This document shows positions 17,165 to 63,662 of a stretch of 64,000 nucleotides of DNA, piece by piece. The position numbers were made by a program, and so were the translations under genes. Under the pieces are notes generated by a model. It saw only the letters and a list, made by a program, of their open reading frames with translations. It made no database searches and had not been told where the DNA came from. Position 1 is the stretch's first letter. Every line of letters starts with the position of its first letter. Origin of the DNA: an uncultured Alphaproteobacteria bacterium (GTDB lineage: Bacteria; Pseudomonadota; Alphaproteobacteria; Methylaequorales; Methylaequoraceae); assembly GCA_902579395.1 (NCBI GenBank), contig CACHGK010000002.1, forward strand, positions 83,378 through 147,377, in the 5' to 3' direction.

Positions 17165-19126
17165 ATGATATACGAGATTTTATTACCACTCCCCCTCAAT
17201 AAAACATTTTCATACCAACACCCCTTTCCTTTCAAATCATCCGATAAATTACTAATAGGTTCTTTGGTAGAAGTTGAGTTCAACAAAAAAATTCTTGTTG
17301 GTCTAGTTTCTAATATCATAGATTCTGAAAGTTCGAATAGACCTCTCAAAAAAATTAAAAAAATTTGTAACCCTTTTTTTAATAAAGAAATAATTGAAAG
17401 TATTAATTTCATATCTCATTACACTTGTAATAAAAAATCATTAATATTAAAATTATTCCTTTCTGGTTTTTCTAATAGAACTGATTTTTTAAAAATAAAA
17501 AGTTTAAAAAAAAATAAAAAACTTTCTCTGAATACCGATCAAAAGTCAGCTGTAAAATATTTACTAGAAACAAATTTTAAAAAGTTCACAGTGGTACTTC
17601 TTGAAGGCGTAACAGGATCTGGAAAAACAAGAGTTTATATGAACAAAGCGGAAGAAGTTATTGAGGCTGGTTTTCAATGTTTAATTCTAGTGCCCGAAAT
17701 AATTTTAACTACTCAATGGGTAAAAGAAATTGAAGAAGATTATGGACTTGATGCATTAGTTTACCACTCTTCGATTAAAAAAAAAGAAAGAGAGAAAATC
17801 TGGTTTAATGTTAATCAAAATAAAATAAAATTGATCATAGGCACAAGATCAGCACTTTTTCTTCCATTTTCAAAACTCGGTCTAATTGTTGTGGATGAAG
17901 AGCATGACAACTCATACAAACAAGAGGAACAAACAATTATAAATGCAAGAGATTTTTCAATTTTAAGGGCCAGAAACTCAAATTGTATGATTATTTTGAG
18001 CTCTGCAACACCATCAATAGAATCCAGCTACAATGTAAAAATTAAAAAATTCAAACACCTACAATTATCAGAAAGAGTAAATAATCTCTCTCTTCCAAAA
18101 ATTAATATTATAGATATGAGAAACCAAAAAGATTTAATTTCTAGAGATATAATGGAAATAGTAAGTAAGAATATAAAAAATGGCTATCAAACATTAATAT
18201 ATATAAATAAAAGAGGTTACGCACCATTTGTGATTTGTAAAAATTGTGGTTACACTAAAAACTGTGAGAAATGCAATACATCTCTTGTTCTTCACGATTT
18301 AAAAAATAAAAAGGGATATTTACTTTGTCATCATTGTAATTACAGAGAAGATTTCCTTAATATATGCGAAACATGCGGTTCTGAGGATAAATTTTCATTC
18401 TCCGGAGTGGGAGTTGAAAAAATTCATGAATTAATCTCTAACGAATTTCCACAATCAGAATCATGTATTTTATCTAGTGACACAATCAAAAATCACGAAA
18501 AATTTAAAGATTTGATAACTAAAATCATATCAAATAAAATTAATATTATAATTGGAACTCAACTTATCACCAAAGGTCACAATTTCCCGTTTCTAAAAAC
18601 AGTGATAATTTTAAATATTGATAACCTTCTTAATGACATAAATTTTCGTTCATATGAAAAAACATTTCAACAAATAATACAAGTTTCAGGCAGAGCTGGA
18701 AGAAAGAAACTACAAGGAGAGGTTTTTATTCAAACTTTTCAACCAAATCATCAAGTTATAAAACTATGTAAATCTCAAAACATCAAAAATTTCACTAAAT
18801 GGGAAATAGAATCAAGAAAAAAAAATCTACAACCTCCATTCAAGAGTTACATTTCACTAATTTTGATTTCGAAACTCGAAAAAGAGTTGATATCGTTTTC
18901 CAACATTATTTCAGAAAAAATTAAAAAAACATTTAATGAATTAACTGTTTATGGTCCTGCACCAGCTCTGTTGTATAAAAAAAATCTTGATTTTAGATAT
19001 AGAATATTATTAAAACTTGAAAAATCTTCTAAGATTCAAAATAATATTAAGACTTTTCTAATAAATTTACAAACGCCGAGTAAAGTAAGATTATACATTG
19101 ATGTAGATCCAATAAACTTTATATAA
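17165..19126 (+). CDS. priA: Primosomal protein N' (replication restart helicase)
   Basis: PriA reloads the replicative helicase at stalled forks. The 653 residues are shorter than the usual 730, mainly in the N-terminal DNA-binding region. Walker A is EGVTGSGKTRVYM and Walker B is VVDEEHDNSYKQ (DEEH). Helicase motif III is SSATPSIES. The paired zinc knuckles are CKNCGYTKNCEKCNTS and CHHCNYREDFLNICETCGS. The C-terminal half has the motifs GTQLITKGHNFP and QVSGRAGR. It precedes the ATP synthase operon, as in other Alphaproteobacteria. Confidence 0.97.
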   Translation: MIYEILLPLPLNKTFSYQHPFPFKSSDKLLIGSLVEVEFNKKILVGLVSNIIDSESSNRPLKKIKKICNPFFNKEIIESINFISHYTCNKKSLILKLFLSGFSNRTDFLKIKSLKKNKKLSLNTDQKSAVKYLLETNFKKFTVVLLEGVTGSGKTRVYMNKAEEVIEAGFQCLILVPEIILTTQWVKEIEEDYGLDALVYHSSIKKKEREKIWFNVNQNKIKLIIGTRSALFLPFSKLGLIVVDEEHDNSYKQEEQTIINARDFSILRARNSNCMIILSSATPSIESSYNVKIKKFKHLQLSERVNNLSLPKINIIDMRNQKDLISRDIMEIVSKNIKNGYQTLIYINKRGYAPFVICKNCGYTKNCEKCNTSLVLHDLKNKKGYLLCHHCNYREDFLNICETCGSEDKFSFSGVGVEKIHELISNEFPQSESCILSSDTIKNHEKFKDLITKIISNKINIIIGTQLITKGHNFPFLKTVIILNIDNLLNDINFRSYEKTFQQIIQVSGRAGRKKLQGEVFIQTFQPNHQVIKLCKSQNIKNFTKWEIESRKKNLQPPFKSYISLILISKLEKELISFSNIISEKIKKTFNELTVYGPAPALLYKKNLDFRYRILLKLEKSSKIQNNIKTFLINLQTPSKVRLYIDVDPINFI

Positions 19127-57734: not shown

Positions 57735-57821
57735 GCCCCTATGGCGGAATTGGTAGACGCGACGGATTCAAAATCCGTTGAACTTCGGTTCATGTCCGTT
57801 CGAGTCGGACTAGGGGTACCA
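57735..57821 (+). tRNA. tRNA-Leu (anticodon CAA), with encoded CCA
   Basis: The 87-base gene folds into a class II tRNA. The acceptor strands are GCCCCTA and TAGGGGT with A73 and an encoded CCA. The anticodon stem ACGGA/TCCGT encloses the loop TTCAAAA with anticodon CAA, reading UUG codons. The long variable arm GAAC-TTCG-GTTC marks tRNA-Leu. The T arm is GTCCG-TTCGAGT-CGGAC. The 3' part from the anticodon stem onwards is duplicated twice downstream, so this gene is the integration site of two islands. Confidence 0.98.
57762..57821 (+). repeat. att core copy 1, inside tRNA-Leu
   Basis: This is the 3' portion of the tRNA-Leu gene, from the anticodon stem to the CCA end. The same sequence recurs at 59568-59624 (57 of 57 identical over that length) and 62737-62796 (59 of 60). 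Copies of a tRNA 3' end in direct orientation are the classical footprint of tyrosine-recombinase integration. Confidence 0.9.
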
Positions 57822-57894
57822 TCTAAACTCAATGTAGGTAAGGGTTTTAGACTATACATATCGTTTTGAAAACAAACATTGAACCTAACAAAAT

Positions 57895-57918
57895 GTTTGA
57901 TAGTGTTTGATACTAATG
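57895..57918. repeat. Paired GTTTGATA motifs at left end of island 1
   Basis: GTTTGATA at 57895-57902 and GTTTGATACTAATG at 57905-57918 lie about 75-100 bases from the tRNA end. The first also overlaps an inverted repeat, CAAACATT (57873-57880) with AATGTTTG (57892-57899). Identical 14-base motifs recur at the other end of the island. They resemble recombinase arm-type binding sites, but this is inferred. Confidence 0.5.
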
Positions 57919-58055
57919 ACTCGCACAGACTACACAAGAATTTCACAAGGTTTATCAATTTATAAACAAGCGAGAAGTCTCCACTGGTTTGCTCACATGC
58001 CACGTTATTATTTCTTAAATTAAATTATTTGGCATATAATTTGCTGATTTTATAA

Positions 58056-59288
58056 ATGAATCAGTTAAGCCCAGAATCATTTGAAAAATTTAAATGTATT
58101 GGATCAAGCTGCCCACAATCTTGTTGCGTTGGCTGGAAAATACTCATAGATGAAAATACATATGATAAATATAATAACTCTGAAGATAAGAAAATTAAAT
58201 CTGTTGCAAATAAGTATATAAAAAGACTTGAAAATACTAACGACTTTATTGCTGAAATTTCTTTAAAAGATAATTCTTGTCCTTTTTTAGGAGCTGACAA
58301 ATTATGTGAAGTCCAAAAAAAATATGGTCATGATTATTTATCTCCTTCCTGCTCTAACTATCCAAGAAAATCAATAAATTTTGGTACCAAAAAATTAAAA
58401 ACTTTAGATTTATCATGTCCAGAGGCAGCTAGGTTAGTCTTATTTGATAAAAATCCTTTAAATCTTTATGAGGATAGAATCTATAAAACTAAGCTTCCTA
58501 TTAGAATTAATAGTAAAAAGGAATTAGATAATTACAAAATAGTTGGTGAAAAAATTTTTAATCTTTCTTTATCATTATTAAATGATAATAAAGTTTCTAC
58601 TCCTGTTGCATTATGCGTTACTAAGAAATTAATGGAGGAACAAAAGAATTTAGAATATTTTCCTGGTAAACTTGATGATATTTATAACTATTTTTTAAAA
58701 ATTTTCTTAGAGAATAATTTTTTAGATTTTGACACCACTTCCATAAAAATTAATTTTTTTCGAGATCTATATGAATATCGTAATAAACAATTATTTGATA
58801 AAAAAAATACCAAAAAAATTGGGATATCTGAGAAGTTTACAAATGAATGGAATCTTGCGTATGAAAATTTAATTAATAAATTCAATAGCTCTAAAAAAAG
58901 ATTTGAAAATTTAAAAGAAATAGAAAAGCTTTATTACATTGAGTTAAATAAAGAAAAAGTGAATTTTATAAATAATTACCTCATCAATGAATTCCTTGGT
59001 AATTCAAGCATGTTTTATTTCAAAGTTGCTTATATTGAAAAAAGGATAGAAATAATTTTATTAGTTGCTGTAATAGCTAAATTTTTAATTTTGGGAAAGT
59101 TATCAGAAGATAAATATATTTCTCAAGATGAAATCACAAAGGCATTTTATCTTGCTAAAAGAAATATTCGTTTTTTTACTAACTTTAGACCAAATACAGA
59201 ATATAAGTTTAGAGATGAAATAGAGACAATTTTAAAGAAAATAGATAACAATGATCTTTTTAACTCATTGTTGTTCTTATTTATTTGA
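58056..59288 (+). CDS. FliB-family lysine-N-methylase-like protein
   Basis: The 410-residue protein shows the FliB cysteine pattern: Cys 14, 19, 23, 24 followed by W27 in CIGSSCPQSCCVGWKILID. It continues with NSCPFLGADKLCEVQKKYG, LSPSCSNYPRK and LDLSCPEAARLVL. FliB methylates flagellin lysines in enterics and probably uses an Fe-S cluster. No flagellar gene is seen in this window, so the substrate here is unknown. It is the only intact gene of island 1. Confidence 0.85.
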   Translation: MNQLSPESFEKFKCIGSSCPQSCCVGWKILIDENTYDKYNNSEDKKIKSVANKYIKRLENTNDFIAEISLKDNSCPFLGADKLCEVQKKYGHDYLSPSCSNYPRKSINFGTKKLKTLDLSCPEAARLVLFDKNPLNLYEDRIYKTKLPIRINSKKELDNYKIVGEKIFNLSLSLLNDNKVSTPVALCVTKKLMEEQKNLEYFPGKLDDIYNYFLKIFLENNFLDFDTTSIKINFFRDLYEYRNKQLFDKKNTKKIGISEKFTNEWNLAYENLINKFNSSKKRFENLKEIEKLYYIELNKEKVNFINNYLINEFLGNSSMFYFKVAYIEKRIEIILLVAVIAKFLILGKLSEDKYISQDEITKAFYLAKRNIRFFTNFRPNTEYKFRDEIETILKKIDNNDLFNSLLFLFI

Positions 59289-59460
59289 ATGTAATTTTTT
59301 CTTATACGCTTGAGATGCAATTAAACTTAATAATAAGTAATAGCTACCTTGCCACCATCCTAGCCAGAAAGAAAAGTAATTCCTAATCTATAACAACTCA
59401 ATTAACTCTACTTAAAGATACAACCCTACCCCCCCTTGATTTTTAAGGTGATTGATTTAA

Positions 59461-59507
59461 CATTCATAGGGATATTTTTAGAGATTTTGAAAAAAAAAGT
59501 TTGATAC
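59461..59507. repeat. Right-end repeat of island 1
   Basis: A stretch beginning ATTCATAGGGATATTT and ending in AAAGTTTGATA closely matches 62649-62692, the right end of island 2. The two lie 61 and 45 bases before their att copies. The shared flank suggests that both islands belong to one family of elements. Confidence 0.55.
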
Positions 59508-59523
59508 TAATGTTTGATACTAA
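59499..59523. repeat. Paired GTTTGATACTAA motifs at right end of island 1
   Basis: GTTTGATACTAATG (59499-59512) and GTTTGATACTAA (59512-59523) are adjacent direct repeats. The first is identical over 14 bases to 57905-57918 at the left end. Spacing and location near the att copy fit recombinase arm sites. Confidence 0.5.
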
Positions 59524-59567
59524 AATTTATTTGTATTTAAATCAATGACTTACAACCAAACGCAACT

Positions 59568-59624
59568 GATTCAAAATCCGTTGAACTTCGGTTCATGTCC
59601 GTTCGAGTCGGACTAGGGGTACCA
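59568..59624 (+). repeat. att core copy 2 (truncated tRNA-Leu 3' part)
   Basis: The 57 bases are identical to 57765-57821 of the tRNA-Leu gene and include the anticodon loop, variable arm, T arm and CCA. Weaker similarity extends about eight bases further left. No 5' half is present, so it is not a functional tRNA gene. It separates island 1 from island 2. The 359 bases between genes (59289-59647) contain only this copy and the flank motifs. Confidence 0.9.
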
Positions 59625-59647
59625 AAAACGAAAAAATTTATTAAATT

Positions 59648-60616
59648 TTACAAGGTTAATAATTTTTCATAAATTTTTCTACTTCTTCTATATAGCTCTT
59701 TATCGAAGTGAGATATATTTGTAGTATGAGAAATTTTAAAAAAATCATTTTTATAATAATATCTAAGATCTAGTTTTTTAAATATTTTTTTCCACATGAT
59801 TTTAGAATTTAATTTTTCATAATTTATAAAAATAACATGTTTTTTTTCTTCATAATCTTTTAATACTTTACTGTAAAACAAAAACCATTGTTCTAACCAA
59901 TAATTGATTGAATCAAATTTTTTATAACTTTTAGAAAATGACCATGGTTTATGATCTAACCCAAACTCATAATGACCTAGCCAATTCATATATCTTCTTA
60001 CAAATAAATCTTCAGTTTGAATTTTACTAAACTTTTTATGAATCTTTAATAGGGATAAAGAAGTTTGCAGAGGCTCCCTAAAAATAAATAAGAAAGATGC
60101 TTTGGGAAAAATACTATGAATTTTATTAATTCTATTATAATTGTAGTTGTTTTTACTTAGATATCTTTTCTTAGTATTCTTAAGTAAAATTAAACTGATA
60201 TAGCTTTCAAATTCGATAATACTTTGTTCATTAGAAAATGTCTTCCAGAAAACTTCTTCCAAAGCTTCAGGTGAAGAAAAACTGTATTTGATACCATCAT
60301 TATGTTTTCTTTCTAATGAAATTTCTTTTTTTTTTATTTTTGAGGTACAAAATGACCAAATATTTGGACTTAAAACAAATGGCATATCATTGAAAGTTGA
60401 TGAAGCAAATTGAGCACTAGCATAAATATAATTTAAAATAATAGTAGTACCTGATCTTGGCAAACCCGTTATAAAAACATGTCTTCTATCATCACAATAT
60501 TTATTTGATGATCTCAAGAATAATTCTTTTTCTATTTTAAAAGAGTAATACCTCAAGAATTTATTCGAAAGAATAAAACTATGAAGTTTTCTCTCTAAAA
60601 ATTTATAGTTATGCAT
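59648..60616 (-). CDS. PAPS-dependent sulfotransferase family protein
   Basis: The 322 residues contain the 5'-phosphosulfate loop HVFITGLPRSGTTIILNY near residue 45 and the 3'-phosphate motif SFLFIFREPLQTSLSLLKIH near residue 175. This is the sulfotransferase family that sulfates carbohydrates or lipids using PAPS. It overlaps the 117-residue membrane protein gene by eight bases and is the last gene of the island 2 operon. The substrate is unknown, and a cell-surface glycan is a guess from context. Confidence 0.88.
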   Translation of the reverse strand: MHNYKFLERKLHSFILSNKFLRYYSFKIEKELFLRSSNKYCDDRRHVFITGLPRSGTTIILNYIYASAQFASSTFNDMPFVLSPNIWSFCTSKIKKKEISLERKHNDGIKYSFSSPEALEEVFWKTFSNEQSIIEFESYISLILLKNTKKRYLSKNNYNYNRINKIHSIFPKASFLFIFREPLQTSLSLLKIHKKFSKIQTEDLFVRRYMNWLGHYEFGLDHKPWSFSKSYKKFDSINYWLEQWFLFYSKVLKDYEEKKHVIFINYEKLNSKIMWKKIFKKLDLRYYYKNDFFKISHTTNISHFDKELYRRSRKIYEKLLTL

Positions 60617-60962
60617 TTTTAAATATTTTTAATAAGATTATTGATACTATGATTGCTATTATTAAGCCTTTAAAAGAAAAAACAATAATTTCTATTTCTG
60701 GTTTAATAAAAATCATTATTAAATAAATTACCATTAAAATAAAAAGAACCAAAATTTGATATGTTGATTTTTTGAAAAGTTCTGAGCAAAGGCCAATTAT
60801 TAATTTCTCCTTTTTTTTCTCTTCAAAACCTTTATTCAGAATGACCCTTTTTAGTGATAATATTAAATTATAATTATCTTTCAGTGATTCAAAAAAATTT
60901 GATTTTTTTATAATAAATATAATTGTTGTTATAAATATTACATAAATTATGTAATTTAGCAT
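60609..60962 (-). CDS. Hypothetical membrane protein, 117 residues
   Basis: I do not recognise the family. The protein has a hydrophobic N-terminal helix (about 3-19), a basic Lys-rich middle section (about 20-68) and two C-terminal helices (about 70-88 and 92-113). It lies between the sulfotransferase (eight-base overlap) and the 60-residue protein. Co-transcription with the sulfotransferase suggests a membrane helper in the same process. Confidence 0.65.
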   Translation of the reverse strand: MLNYIIYVIFITTIIFIIKKSNFFESLKDNYNLILSLKRVILNKGFEEKKKEKLIIGLCSELFKKSTYQILVLFILMVIYLIMIFIKPEIEIIVFSFKGLIIAIIVSIILLKIFKNA

Positions 60963-60992
60963 TTTACTTATACAGATAAATAAATAAAAAAA

Positions 60993-61175
60993 TCATTTCT
61001 TTTTATTTTTTAAAAATCTTTTAATTGGAAAATATAGGATCGCTATTAATCCTATGAAAAAAGCTAATATTATCCCTGCTATAGAGGCTATTAATCCTCC
61101 TGCCATTCCAGGCCCAATATAAGCATTCGTAAAAAAAGGTATTAAAACATTTAAAAAAAAAATTAATTTGTACAT
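60993..61175 (-). CDS. Small Gly-rich membrane protein, 60 residues
   Basis: The protein has an N-terminal hydrophobic segment that could be a signal (residues 1-18), the motif YIGPGMAGGLIASIAGII, and a membrane helix ending in a basic tail, YFPIKRFLKNKKK. The start overlaps the end of the arylsulfotransferase-like gene by 13 bases. I recall similar YIGPG-type small proteins beside sulfotransferase genes in marine bacteria, but the function is unknown. Confidence 0.7.
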   Translation of the reverse strand: MYKLIFFLNVLIPFFTNAYIGPGMAGGLIASIAGIILAFFIGLIAILYFPIKRFLKNKKK

Positions 61176-62557
61176 GATTTTGATTTTATTAATTTTATTT
61201 GATTTCTCAGTTTATTATTCATTTTTAAAACTCTTGAAAAACCTAATCCATAATTAGTACCATTTTTTGCCTTATTTACATATTCAAGGGTTAATTCTCC
61301 ATTTTTATCAAAAAATAGTAGCCTTCCAGATTGAGTTTCTTCAATAAATAAACTTCCATCATCTAAGATTTCGGATAGACCTGCAACACTTGTTCTAACG
61401 TTATTTTCATTAATACCCTTTGAAAATTTTTTGTTAAACTTTTTAGTTTCAAAATTATAAATTAGAATTTCGATATTTCCAATATCTGGATCGCCTAAAA
61501 AATGTATTCTTGCATTATTAATTCTCTCTCCTTTATAGAAATAAATATTATTATTAAAAATTGAAATTTCTTTATCTGAAATAATGTCAACATCATGTTG
61601 ATTTGAAAATGGACCAGTAATAGAGCTAATGATTTTATTAGTTGAAGGCCTATATAAAATAATCATATTTTGTGATCTTAAACTTAAAAATAAATCTCCT
61701 TTTTTCCAATATTTACCATTCTGCTCAACTGGTTGTATATCGTTTAGATGAATTGGGTCTCCATGAAATACATAATTAGAAAAAACTAGATGCTCTAATT
61801 TATTATCTAGTAAGATTTGTGATACGGATTTTTGATATAATATTTTCCCTTCTTTAGAAACTTTCGTTATTGCATCATCAAAAAAATCACCATACTTATT
61901 TCCTACTTTTTTTTCGTCCAGTGAATAAGGAAATATTCTTGAGGGTACCCAGTAGTTTTCATTAGAATCTACTTCATTAGAATGATGAAAATGATCTATA
62001 TCATTTATCCATTTTAATTTATTACATGCATCAATTTTAATCAATGCCGATCCATTTGCGTGAAAGAGTAAACCACCATCACTCGTAATCAGAGGTGAAT
62101 GTATTTTAAATCTATTTTCATGAAGATCTCTTTCTAAAAGTAAATACTCCTCTCTTTTCTGATCAATCAGACTATTTATATATTTTATATCAGGATTCCA
62201 TCTTTGGATTACTTTTTGATCCTCTAGATTAATAAGTTCAACTACACTTTCACTAATATTACCATCATATCTTGAAAGTAATAAAAAATAATTCTTCTGT
62301 TTAAAAGAACCAACAAAACCATCTTTATCTTTAAATCTTTTACCCACTCCTAGGTCAACTCCAGGATCTTTAGCAACATGTAAAATTTTTTTTATATTCA
62401 TTGGAATCTCAGCAAGAAAAACTGCAAACTTTGAAATAGGACCGAGCTTCACAGTGCCTACTAATTCTTGTCTGACTAAAACACCAAAAAAAATTGCAAA
62501 TAAAATTGAACAAAGTATTGCAAGATATAAAATCCAAATCTCTATTTTTTTAAACAT
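61163..62557 (-). CDS. Arylsulfotransferase (ASST)-like membrane-anchored protein
   Basis: The 464-residue protein has one N-terminal membrane anchor (about 8-30), followed by a beta-propeller-like region facing the periplasm. Features suggesting the ASST family are INDIDHFHHSNEVDSNENYW, HGDPIHLNDIQPVEQNG and NQHDVDIISDKEISIF, with conserved His and Asn at propeller strand ends. ASST enzymes transfer sulfate between phenolic compounds. Whether this one is active is unknown. It is the first gene of the island 2 operon. Confidence 0.75.
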   Translation of the reverse strand: MFKKIEIWILYLAILCSILFAIFFGVLVRQELVGTVKLGPISKFAVFLAEIPMNIKKILHVAKDPGVDLGVGKRFKDKDGFVGSFKQKNYFLLLSRYDGNISESVVELINLEDQKVIQRWNPDIKYINSLIDQKREEYLLLERDLHENRFKIHSPLITSDGGLLFHANGSALIKIDACNKLKWINDIDHFHHSNEVDSNENYWVPSRIFPYSLDEKKVGNKYGDFFDDAITKVSKEGKILYQKSVSQILLDNKLEHLVFSNYVFHGDPIHLNDIQPVEQNGKYWKKGDLFLSLRSQNMIILYRPSTNKIISSITGPFSNQHDVDIISDKEISIFNNNIYFYKGERINNARIHFLGDPDIGNIEILIYNFETKKFNKKFSKGINENNVRTSVAGLSEILDDGSLFIEETQSGRLLFFDKNGELTLEYVNKAKNGTNYGLGFSRVLKMNNKLRNQIKLIKSKSCTN

Positions 62558-62648
62558 TTTGAATTTCCAATAATGTGTCTATTAATAATTTCCTGTTATT
62601 TTAAACTAACTTTAGTCGATAATCTACTAATAGGAATTTGAATTTTAA

Positions 62649-62692
62649 TATTCATGGAGATATTCCTACAGATTTTGAAAAAAAGTTTGATA
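62649..62692. repeat. Right-end repeat of island 2, with GTTTGATA motif
   Basis: This stretch matches 59461-59507 at the right end of island 1, including CAGATTTTGAAAAAAAGTTT and the terminal GTTTGATA (62685-62692). It lies 45 bases before att copy 3. The 340 bases between genes (62558-62897) contain this repeat and the att copy and nothing else I can support. Confidence 0.55.
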
Positions 62693-62736
62693 GAAAAAAC
62701 CTTATGTAATCAAATTAATAACATACATTATACATA

Positions 62737-62796
62737 ACGGATTCAAAATCCGTTGAACTTCGATTCATGTCCGTTCGAGTCGGACTAGGGGTACCA
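62737..62796 (+). repeat. att core copy 3 (truncated tRNA-Leu 3' part)
   Basis: The 60 bases match 57762-57821 of tRNA-Leu with one difference in the variable arm (CTTCGATTC instead of CTTCGGTTC). It again starts at the anticodon stem and ends with CCA. It closes island 2. The single change suggests that this copy is older or came from a different donor than copy 2. Confidence 0.9.
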
Positions 62797-62897
62797 TGAA
62801 ATTAATTGTCTTTTCCTGAATAAATTTTTATGATTAGATTCTGACTTAACCTTATTCCTAAAGATAATTTTTAAAAAGTGTGATAGTAAAGTTTATT

Positions 62898-63662
62898 ATG
62901 ACAAGACATAGAGGAAAATTTAATATAAACAACCCTGAACCTTATGAACTAAGCAGATCAAGAATAGAAAACTTTATAAAATGTCCAGCTTGTTTTTTTA
63001 TGCAGCAGGTTGAAGGTATTGAGTTTCCAAGTATGCCAGGTTTCAACATCAATGAAGCTACGGATATTTTGTTAAAAAAAGATTTTGATTATTATAGAGA
63101 AAAAAAAAAAACTCATCCATTTTTAGAAAACCACGGTTTTTCTCACCTTATACCGTTTCAACATAAACATTTTGAACTGTGGACTCAAAGTATGCATTTT
63201 GGTGCTGAAAACAGAATGCATTATGATCATTTGGAGTCAAATATTAGAGTGGGAGGTGGGCTTGATGATGTATGGTTGAATACAAAAACATCTAAAATCC
63301 ACATAGTTGATTATAAAAGTACATCACAAAAAAAAAATAACGGTCCTATAAATTTAAACGATAAATGGAAAGAAGCTTACAAGAGACAAATGGATCTATA
63401 CGTTTGGGTAATGAAAAGGAAAGGTTTTAATGTTGATGAAATAGGGTTTTTTTTATACTGCGATGGCAACAGATTTACAGATCAAAGCTTTTTAAATAAT
63501 AAAAACGCAATGATGGAATTCAAAATTACTTTAATAGAATACAAAACAAATCTTTCATGGATTGAAGTAACACTGAATAACATTCACAGTTGCTTAAGGT
63601 TGGACAAACGACCTAAACATTCAGAAAATTGTGAATACGGTATTTTTATTAATCAAATTTAA
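62898..63662 (+). CDS. PD-(D/E)XK nuclease-like protein
   Basis: The 254 residues have the RecB/Cas4-like opening LSRSRIENFIKCPACFFMQQ and the nuclease core motif RVGGGLDDVWLN followed by IHIVDYKSTS (Asp...Asp-x-Lys). The Cys of CPACFF and late Cys residues (HSCLRL, SENCEYG) could bind an Fe-S cluster as in Cas4/AddB. There are no CRISPR repeats or cas genes nearby. I use the ATG at 62898. A GTG at 62880 would add six residues. It directly follows the last att copy, so it may be island cargo or the original chromosomal neighbour. Confidence 0.82.
   Translation: MTRHRGKFNINNPEPYELSRSRIENFIKCPACFFMQQVEGIEFPSMPGFNINEATDILLKKDFDYYREKKKTHPFLENHGFSHLIPFQHKHFELWTQSMHFGAENRMHYDHLESNIRVGGGLDDVWLNTKTSKIHIVDYKSTSQKKNNGPINLNDKWKEAYKRQMDLYVWVMKRKGFNVDEIGFFLYCDGNRFTDQSFLNNKNAMMEFKITLIEYKTNLSWIEVTLNNIHSCLRLDKRPKHSENCEYGIFINQI

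Follow-up and report, generated by a model that had tools for sequence, protein, structure and literature searches.

The window analysed in this study, a 64,000-nucleotide stretch of an uncultured alphaproteobacterial genome (assembly GCA_902579395.1, contig CACHGK010000002.1, positions 83,378 to 147,377), holds two small genomic islands arranged in tandem behind a single tRNA-Leu(CAA) gene. The intact tRNA gene (57735..57821, plus strand; ARAGORN, Rfam tRNA) forms the left end of the array and its putative attachment target, and the identical 87-mer is present in 21 contigs of the same family. Downstream lie two direct, plus-strand copies of its 3' half, each with its first base in the anticodon stem and its last bases being CCA. 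The first (59560..59624), which would be the core or right attachment site (attR) of island 1, is 97% identical to the tRNA over 65 nt and 57/57 identical from 59568 (E-value 2.6e-25 within its own genome). The second (62732..62796), the corresponding site of island 2, is 94% identical over 65 nt and 59/60 identical from 62737 (E-value 2.1e-24 within the same genome), and both matches lie well outside chance expectation. The resulting intervals measure 1,738 bp (57822-59559, island 1) and 3,107 bp (59625-62731, island 2). Island 1 carries on the plus strand a gene for a 410-aa homologue of FliB-type flagellin lysine-N-methylases (58056..59288; NCBIfam NF038110, 189 bits against a cut-off of 85). 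Island 2 carries four genes on the minus strand, coding for a 322-aa sulfotransferase (59648..60616; Pfam Sulfotransfer_3, 4.3e-13), a small membrane-like protein of 117 aa with no family above cut-off (60609..60962), a small protein of 60 aa (60993..61175) and a 464-aa arylsulfotransferase (ASST)-like protein (61163..62557; Pfam, 9.9e-37). Cargo functions, here and in the relatives, were assigned via homology alone. A preliminary description of this locus had recognised the two direct tRNA copies, running from anticodon stem to CCA, and the complete cargo genes between them, and the coordinates, identities, E-values and gene predictions given here bear it out on both counts.

Besides the tRNA copies, the islands carry conserved blocks and short repeats at their ends. 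On the P' side, two tandem arm-type sites (GTTTGATAGT and GTTTGATACTAA; 57895..57916, plus strand) lie 73 and 83 nt past the CCA of the tRNA. On the P side, at the far end of island 1, a right-end block (CATTCATAGGGATATTTTTAGAGATTTTGAAAAAA; 59456..59496, plus strand; D3 repeat, alignment) is followed by two exact copies of GTTTGATACTAA in tandem at a spacing of 13 bp (59499..59523, plus strand). Island 2 ends similarly, with a second copy of the block, 85% identical to the first (62644..62684, plus strand; D3 repeat), and a single arm-type site, GTTTGATAGAA (62685..62695, plus strand). The exact 12-mer of island 1 occurs three times in the window (expected 0.00), in all cases at the two ends of island 1, an arrangement that by its sequence corresponds to arm-type integrase sites at both ends of an integrated element. 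Farther out, a weak, stray arm-like site without a core, GTGTGATAGTAAAGTTTATTA (62878..62898, plus strand), is possibly the eroded end of an older cassette.

Directly 3' of the arm-type repeats behind the tRNA, an open frame of 35 codons (MTRTDYTRISQGLSIYKQARSLHWFAHM...; 57916..58023, plus strand) looks like the surviving start of a tyrosine integrase. We identify it as an N-terminal relic because of its position, the arm sites and its likeness to the relics of two relatives, G018 and G020. The same 35-aa stretch lies behind the tRNA in G013. The G020 relic, of about 190 residues, matches the PHROG integrase family phrog_1 at 3.8e-12, and the 35-aa relic alone gave no match to a PHROG family. 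In a further alphaproteobacterium (G090), a distantly homologous integrase likewise starts after a tRNA 3' half and tandem repeats, in this order; judged by this comparison, the putative relic sits where related elements begin their integrase. The islands had been described as free of any integrase, which is correct for a complete gene but not for this remnant of 35 codons after two arm-type repeats.

The genome belongs to the marine alphaproteobacterial order TMED127 ('Methylaequorales'), which comprises a single family with 12 genera; AG-892-F10, of the window's genus GCA-2691245, is named as TMED127 in PMC12542740. An assignment to HIMB59 was rejected on these two grounds, PMC10734472 dividing that order into two families. 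We examined 32 genomes of the family (54-96% complete; the window's own genome, G000, is 80% complete), and all comparisons are between species, with one genome each. A search with the tRNA returned copies in nearly every genome. The intact tRNA lies on 21 contigs, four of which end within 2.2 kb downstream, and all of the remaining 17 carry 1-6 tandem copies, every one of them on the tRNA strand. Nearest to an empty site is G017, whose tRNA is diverged (85% identity) and is followed by 16 kb with no copy. Across the order, cassettes are mostly 0.6-5 kb in size and often hold a single gene, their limits being set by a BLAST cut-off; some of the long 'cassettes', of 8-12 kb, probably contain stretches of chromosomal backbone. 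About half of the copies are preceded, at fixed positions, by tandem arm-type repeats at a spacing of usually 13 bp: among 77 upstream regions, 49% have a repeat identity of at least 8/10, compared with 2.7% of control places. These repeats occur in dialects (GTGTGATAG, GTTTGATAC, ACATTGATAC, ACATTGACAC and GTGTGAGAG). Alignment further revealed a right-end block, ending in AGAGATTTTGAAAAAAA, that is common to about 20 right ends with differing cargo. An alignment of 14 right ends has a mean column identity of 88%, and a sequence model made from them has strong matches in the 32 genomes almost only at these cores.

The cores are stratified within the arrays. With increasing rank in the array, the 57-nt core matches the tRNA less and less well (mean identities 96.8, 95.3, 90.7, 87.7, 79.8 and 68.4%). 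When two copies of one array are compared, the one closer to the tRNA has the higher identity in 45 of 51 pairs (a tie scoring one half; permutation p = 1e-4). On the strength of this decay, new cassettes seem to enter at the tRNA end, as site-specific integration predicts, and the distal ones seem to be older. In six genomes, the stretch that separates the last copy from the next genes was searched for extra decayed cores, and only in G018 did one exceed the shuffled control. Some arrays also have nearly full-length decayed tRNA-Leu(CAA) genes, either at their far end or upstream of them (L038, oriented 18147-18225; L048:16064-16148; L050:2826-2899; L054:2369-2446; L039:972-1058). A simple insertion model does not account for them; newer copies have seemingly taken the place of the functional tRNA-Leu(CAA) gene itself.

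Conservation of a cassette extends from one core to the next, and the order of the cassettes differs among species. One cassette, of 4,250 bp, codes for an alkaline phosphatase, a PycTM-like membrane protein and acyltransferases resembling OlsA and OlsB, the Ols names being those of the best-matching families at scores under the curated cut-offs. From core to core it is 99.2% identical between G004 and G025 and 99.3% between G004 and G029 (range 99.2-99.4%), a comparison of genus g1 with genus g7; a chromosomal 2.2-kb stretch of G004 and G029 is 73% identical. On both sides, identity drops from near 100% to mostly 20-58% past the cores (50-column windows). Comparison of G015 with either G019 or G021 gave 98.5-99.0% identity for a second cassette and 73-74% for the genes flanking these arrays. 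Between G029 and G025, the phosphatase cassette and its neighbour, a histidine-phosphatase cassette, have exchanged places. For the window's own two cassettes, no close nucleotide match was found among the relatives. The preliminary description had suggested a modular gene-exchange site, a proposal that would have been undermined by the same copies and genes at fixed positions in all relatives; instead copy number, cargo and order vary, and cassettes have been reshuffled between species and genera.

The alkaline phosphatase/ornithine-lipid cassette, with arm and core, was also seen away from tRNA-Leu. In G003, G007, G009, G012, G019 and G030 (L200-L204, L062) it adjoins the phosphate operon, identified in G007 as pstSCAB-phoU-phoB, with ppx on the far side. 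This appears to be an array block that has taken up residence in the phosphate regulon.

The 5' anticodon stem of most copies deviates alike from the tRNA (ACGCAACTGA vs ACGCGACGGA; element-specific stem ACTGA), and partial copies match the tRNA from the anticodon loop onward, a combination that fits a crossover in that loop (TTCAAAA; 57767..57773, plus strand, with the same loop at 59570-59576 and 62742-62748). In the model that we propose, a cassette consists of its cargo and a right end (the conserved block, usually tandem arm-type sites, and the tRNA-Leu 3' half as core). A tyrosine integrase would join the circular cassette to the tRNA within the anticodon loop. The incoming core would restore the tRNA and the old 3' half would be displaced outward to become the far boundary of the cassette, so that new cassettes would come to lie next to the tRNA and older ones farther out, decaying. 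In the ancestor of island 1, a gene for the element's own integrase would have separated the left arm sites from the cargo; it is now deleted save for 35 codons, and excision or re-integration would consequently need an integrase in trans. Such an enzyme would most likely come from something not resident in the genomes sampled, be it a phage, a plasmid or a related complete element. Its gene would be expected to start about 95 bp past a tRNA-Leu(CAA) core, with arms GTTTGATA or ACATTGATA. The most recently moved cassettes have no integrase in any host; if site-specific recombination was responsible for their transfer, its enzyme was supplied from elsewhere. Overall, we judge it probable (roughly 0.7), from these sequence patterns, that the arrays consist of non-autonomous cassettes with att flanks, which an unsampled tyrosine integrase mobilises in trans. 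The first interpretation of the tRNA repeats, as footprints of tyrosine-recombinase insertion, is supported, and the predicted dependence on a recombinase encoded elsewhere agrees with arrays that lack a complete one, keep their arm sites and contain a relic, which points to mobilisation in trans.

Several points weigh against this proposal. No fitting helper integrase was found in the 32 family genomes, and at 54-96% completeness the absence of an integrase from a single genome says little, but its absence from every one of the 32 makes it unlikely that a fixed chromosomal helper exists. Queries of INPHARED and IMG/VR with the core, the arm dialects and the relic integrase gave nothing useful with the patterns tried. 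Most cassettes have no left (P') arm sites, which many integrases need, and RecA exchange, acting through cores of 57-65 bp, is another way in which cassettes could move. No excised circle was seen.

The integrase relics in four genomes (G000, G013, G018 and G020), the decayed distal cores and a helper that is not resident would also be expected if complete elements had integrated serially long ago, lost their integrases and become passive, with accretion and decay only and no mobilisation in trans. We consider this unlikely, since the 99%-identical cross-genus cassettes are integrase-free in every host and must have moved after losing an integrase or never have had one, and since arm sites are conserved beside unrelated cargo. 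The identity edges at the cores are predicted as well by homologous recombination following DNA uptake (transformation, transduction or gene transfer agents), in which the tRNA halves would act as short homology arms; the 57-65 bp cores are long enough for RecA exchange, and homologous recombination is the presumed route of spread for the phosphate island of HIMB59, another streamlined order (PMC10734472). This route is nevertheless improbable, as it leaves the conserved arm sites at fixed positions and the integrase relics unexplained, and likewise the entry at the tRNA end, although that last argument is a weak one, the proximal cores also being the least decayed. Mis-assembled single-cell genomes or a transposable tRNA fragment are scarcely credible as the origin of the pattern even though most relatives are single amplified genomes and single-cell amplification can yield chimaeras, because the same cassettes and core edges recur in independent assemblies, including metagenome bins, and all copies lie on one strand behind one tRNA with differing cargo.

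Mobilisation in trans by a visiting integrase can be extended, tentatively, into a broader scheme. TMED127 would keep an integron-like, tRNA-based system of minimal cassettes with a one-sided att (right-end block, arm sites and tRNA core, mostly with no left arm), which would be moved wholly in trans by several related integrases on phages or other visitors, with one arm dialect for each (GTGTGATAG-GTGTGAGAG), and the traffic would be frequent enough to pass a phosphate-starvation cassette across genera. The block common to the right ends may, on this view, serve the carrier for recognition or packaging. We regard this scheme as possible rather than probable.

No complete integrase lies in any array (no PF00589 match inside the arrays), and the only two recombinases of the window's own genome are Xer-type. 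Comparison of the 361-bp left attachment (attL) stretch with PLSDB gave only short matches resembling tRNA. Other integrases in the family were rejected as helpers. The 396-aa and 457-aa integrases abut tRNA-Thr(TGT) sequences and differ in their arm sites (GGAGCCCC; GGTAACACA), those of 415-421 aa carry arms TAGGGGTAA, and the integrase behind tRNA-Leu(GAG) looks catalytically dead. This last gene (415-448 aa) occupies the same place in four species (L144:8176-9420, L145:8551-9816, L146 and L147), its catalytic residues are, by eye, seemingly missing (TGCSYSEI vs the usual TGxRxxE), and it is perhaps a domesticated integrase. The start of the 396-aa integrase (L133-L137, L149) is preceded by tandem GGAGCCCC repeats, and a 3' half of tRNA-Thr(TGT) adjoins the gene, which is intact in several relatives and shorter in G001 and G025. 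Integrase-bearing elements thus exist in TMED127 at another tRNA, tRNA-Thr(TGT).

A further tRNA of the window's own genome, tRNA-His(GTG), also has tandem 3'-half copies with cargo between them (L175:6747-15006, corresponding to G000:C2:164747-173006), and the same is seen in at least nine relatives. Since the tRNA-His right ends were found on inspection to have no Leu arm motifs, this array is likely served by a different integrase. Several Leu cassettes have a degenerate reverse tRNA-His(GTG) beside their right end (L049:3365-4451; right ends in L037, L059 and L074), some have a tRNA-His 3' half near the left arm, and a 168-aa gene is found both in the G000 His array and in the Leu arrays of relatives. 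These sequences suggest that His cassettes are nested inside Leu cassettes.

Beyond the third tRNA copy of the window, a PD-(D/E)XK nuclease gene is followed by an ATP-binding cassette (ABC) permease, its ATPase and a TesA-like esterase, a run of genes that extends out of the window. The theme of surface functions that had been suggested for the cargo found no support. Across the order the cargo is mixed, with sulfo- and methyltransferases, major facilitator superfamily (MFS) transport, glutaminase, DNA methyltransferases, GIY-YIG-type proteins, lipoproteins, and alkaline phosphatase with ornithine-lipid synthesis. Among the cargo families of the scanned cassettes there were no transfer (conjugation) genes, nor were remnants of integrative and conjugative elements (ICEs) seen. 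Packaging or phage-interference genes were likewise not named among the scanned cassettes, and no helper phage was found in the searches. The array would be a predictable place where TMED127 cells acquire and swap genes cassette by cassette, with age legible from core decay, and the cassette of phosphatase and ornithine-lipid genes suggests a tie between cassette traffic and phosphorus limitation.

Several known systems resemble these arrays. The ICE-derived cis-mobilizable elements (CIMEs), as in the Streptococcus ICESt1 family, have no recombinase of their own, keep their att sites and undergo tandem accretion at one site. The TMED127 cassettes share att-type flanks (cores and arm-type sites, presumably used by an integrase) and the lack of complete recombinase and transfer genes, the window holding only the 35-aa relic. 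Unlike CIMEs, they show no conjugation or ICE remnants, and a cassette is often one gene. As to descent from an ICE or an integrative and mobilizable element (IME) and mobilisation together with a complete neighbour, integrase relics exist, but neither a conjugation gene nor such a neighbour was found. In Dehalococcoides, tandem islands at ssrA are bounded by 3'-end copies, vary in number among strains and have been likened to CIMEs; 15 of them are without an integration module and were suggested to be cis-mobilizable, and 16 keep a complete module (PMC3146451). The likeness lies in tandem islands at one tRNA-like gene, 3'-end copies as bounds and some islands without a recombinase. The target there is ssrA, with a 20 bp repeat and the serine recombinase DsiB, whereas here it is tRNA-Leu, with repeats of 57-65 bp and the relic of a tyrosine integrase, and the complete modules of the 16 islands have no counterpart in the TMED127 arrays.

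Additive flexible genomic islands have been reported in Alteromonas (PMC5217437) and, as fGI-2 with tRNA-Lys 3' repeats, in Methylophilaceae (PMC10872708). They too gain and lose cassettes by site-directed recombination at the same chromosomal place, the comparison here being between species, but arm sites, an integrase relic, an age order of copies and cross-genus identity edges do not feature in the sections of those papers on which we draw. Tycheposons of Prochlorococcus, as summarised in PMC10872708, are tRNA-bordered elements of 4-200 kb with a tyrosine recombinase. The preliminary description had likened the islands to them, which is apt for the logic of tRNA-bound cargo elements in streamlined ocean bacteria but not for size or recombinase, the window's cassettes being 1.7 and 3.1 kb with no recombinase within. 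Integrons are similar in their small cassettes with one recombination site each, single entry end and age order, but here the own genome (80% complete) has only Xer-type recombinases and no IntI integrase, a tRNA serves as the point of entry, and tRNA halves with arm sites take the place of attC. In the open-licence literature we found no earlier report of such arrays for TMED127. Overall, the kind of system is already known (CIMEs, ssrA islands, additive islands and tycheposons), whereas what is new in this variant is that many cassettes are small, that a complete integrase is lacking order-wide, that the arms come in dialects and that an age order can be read.

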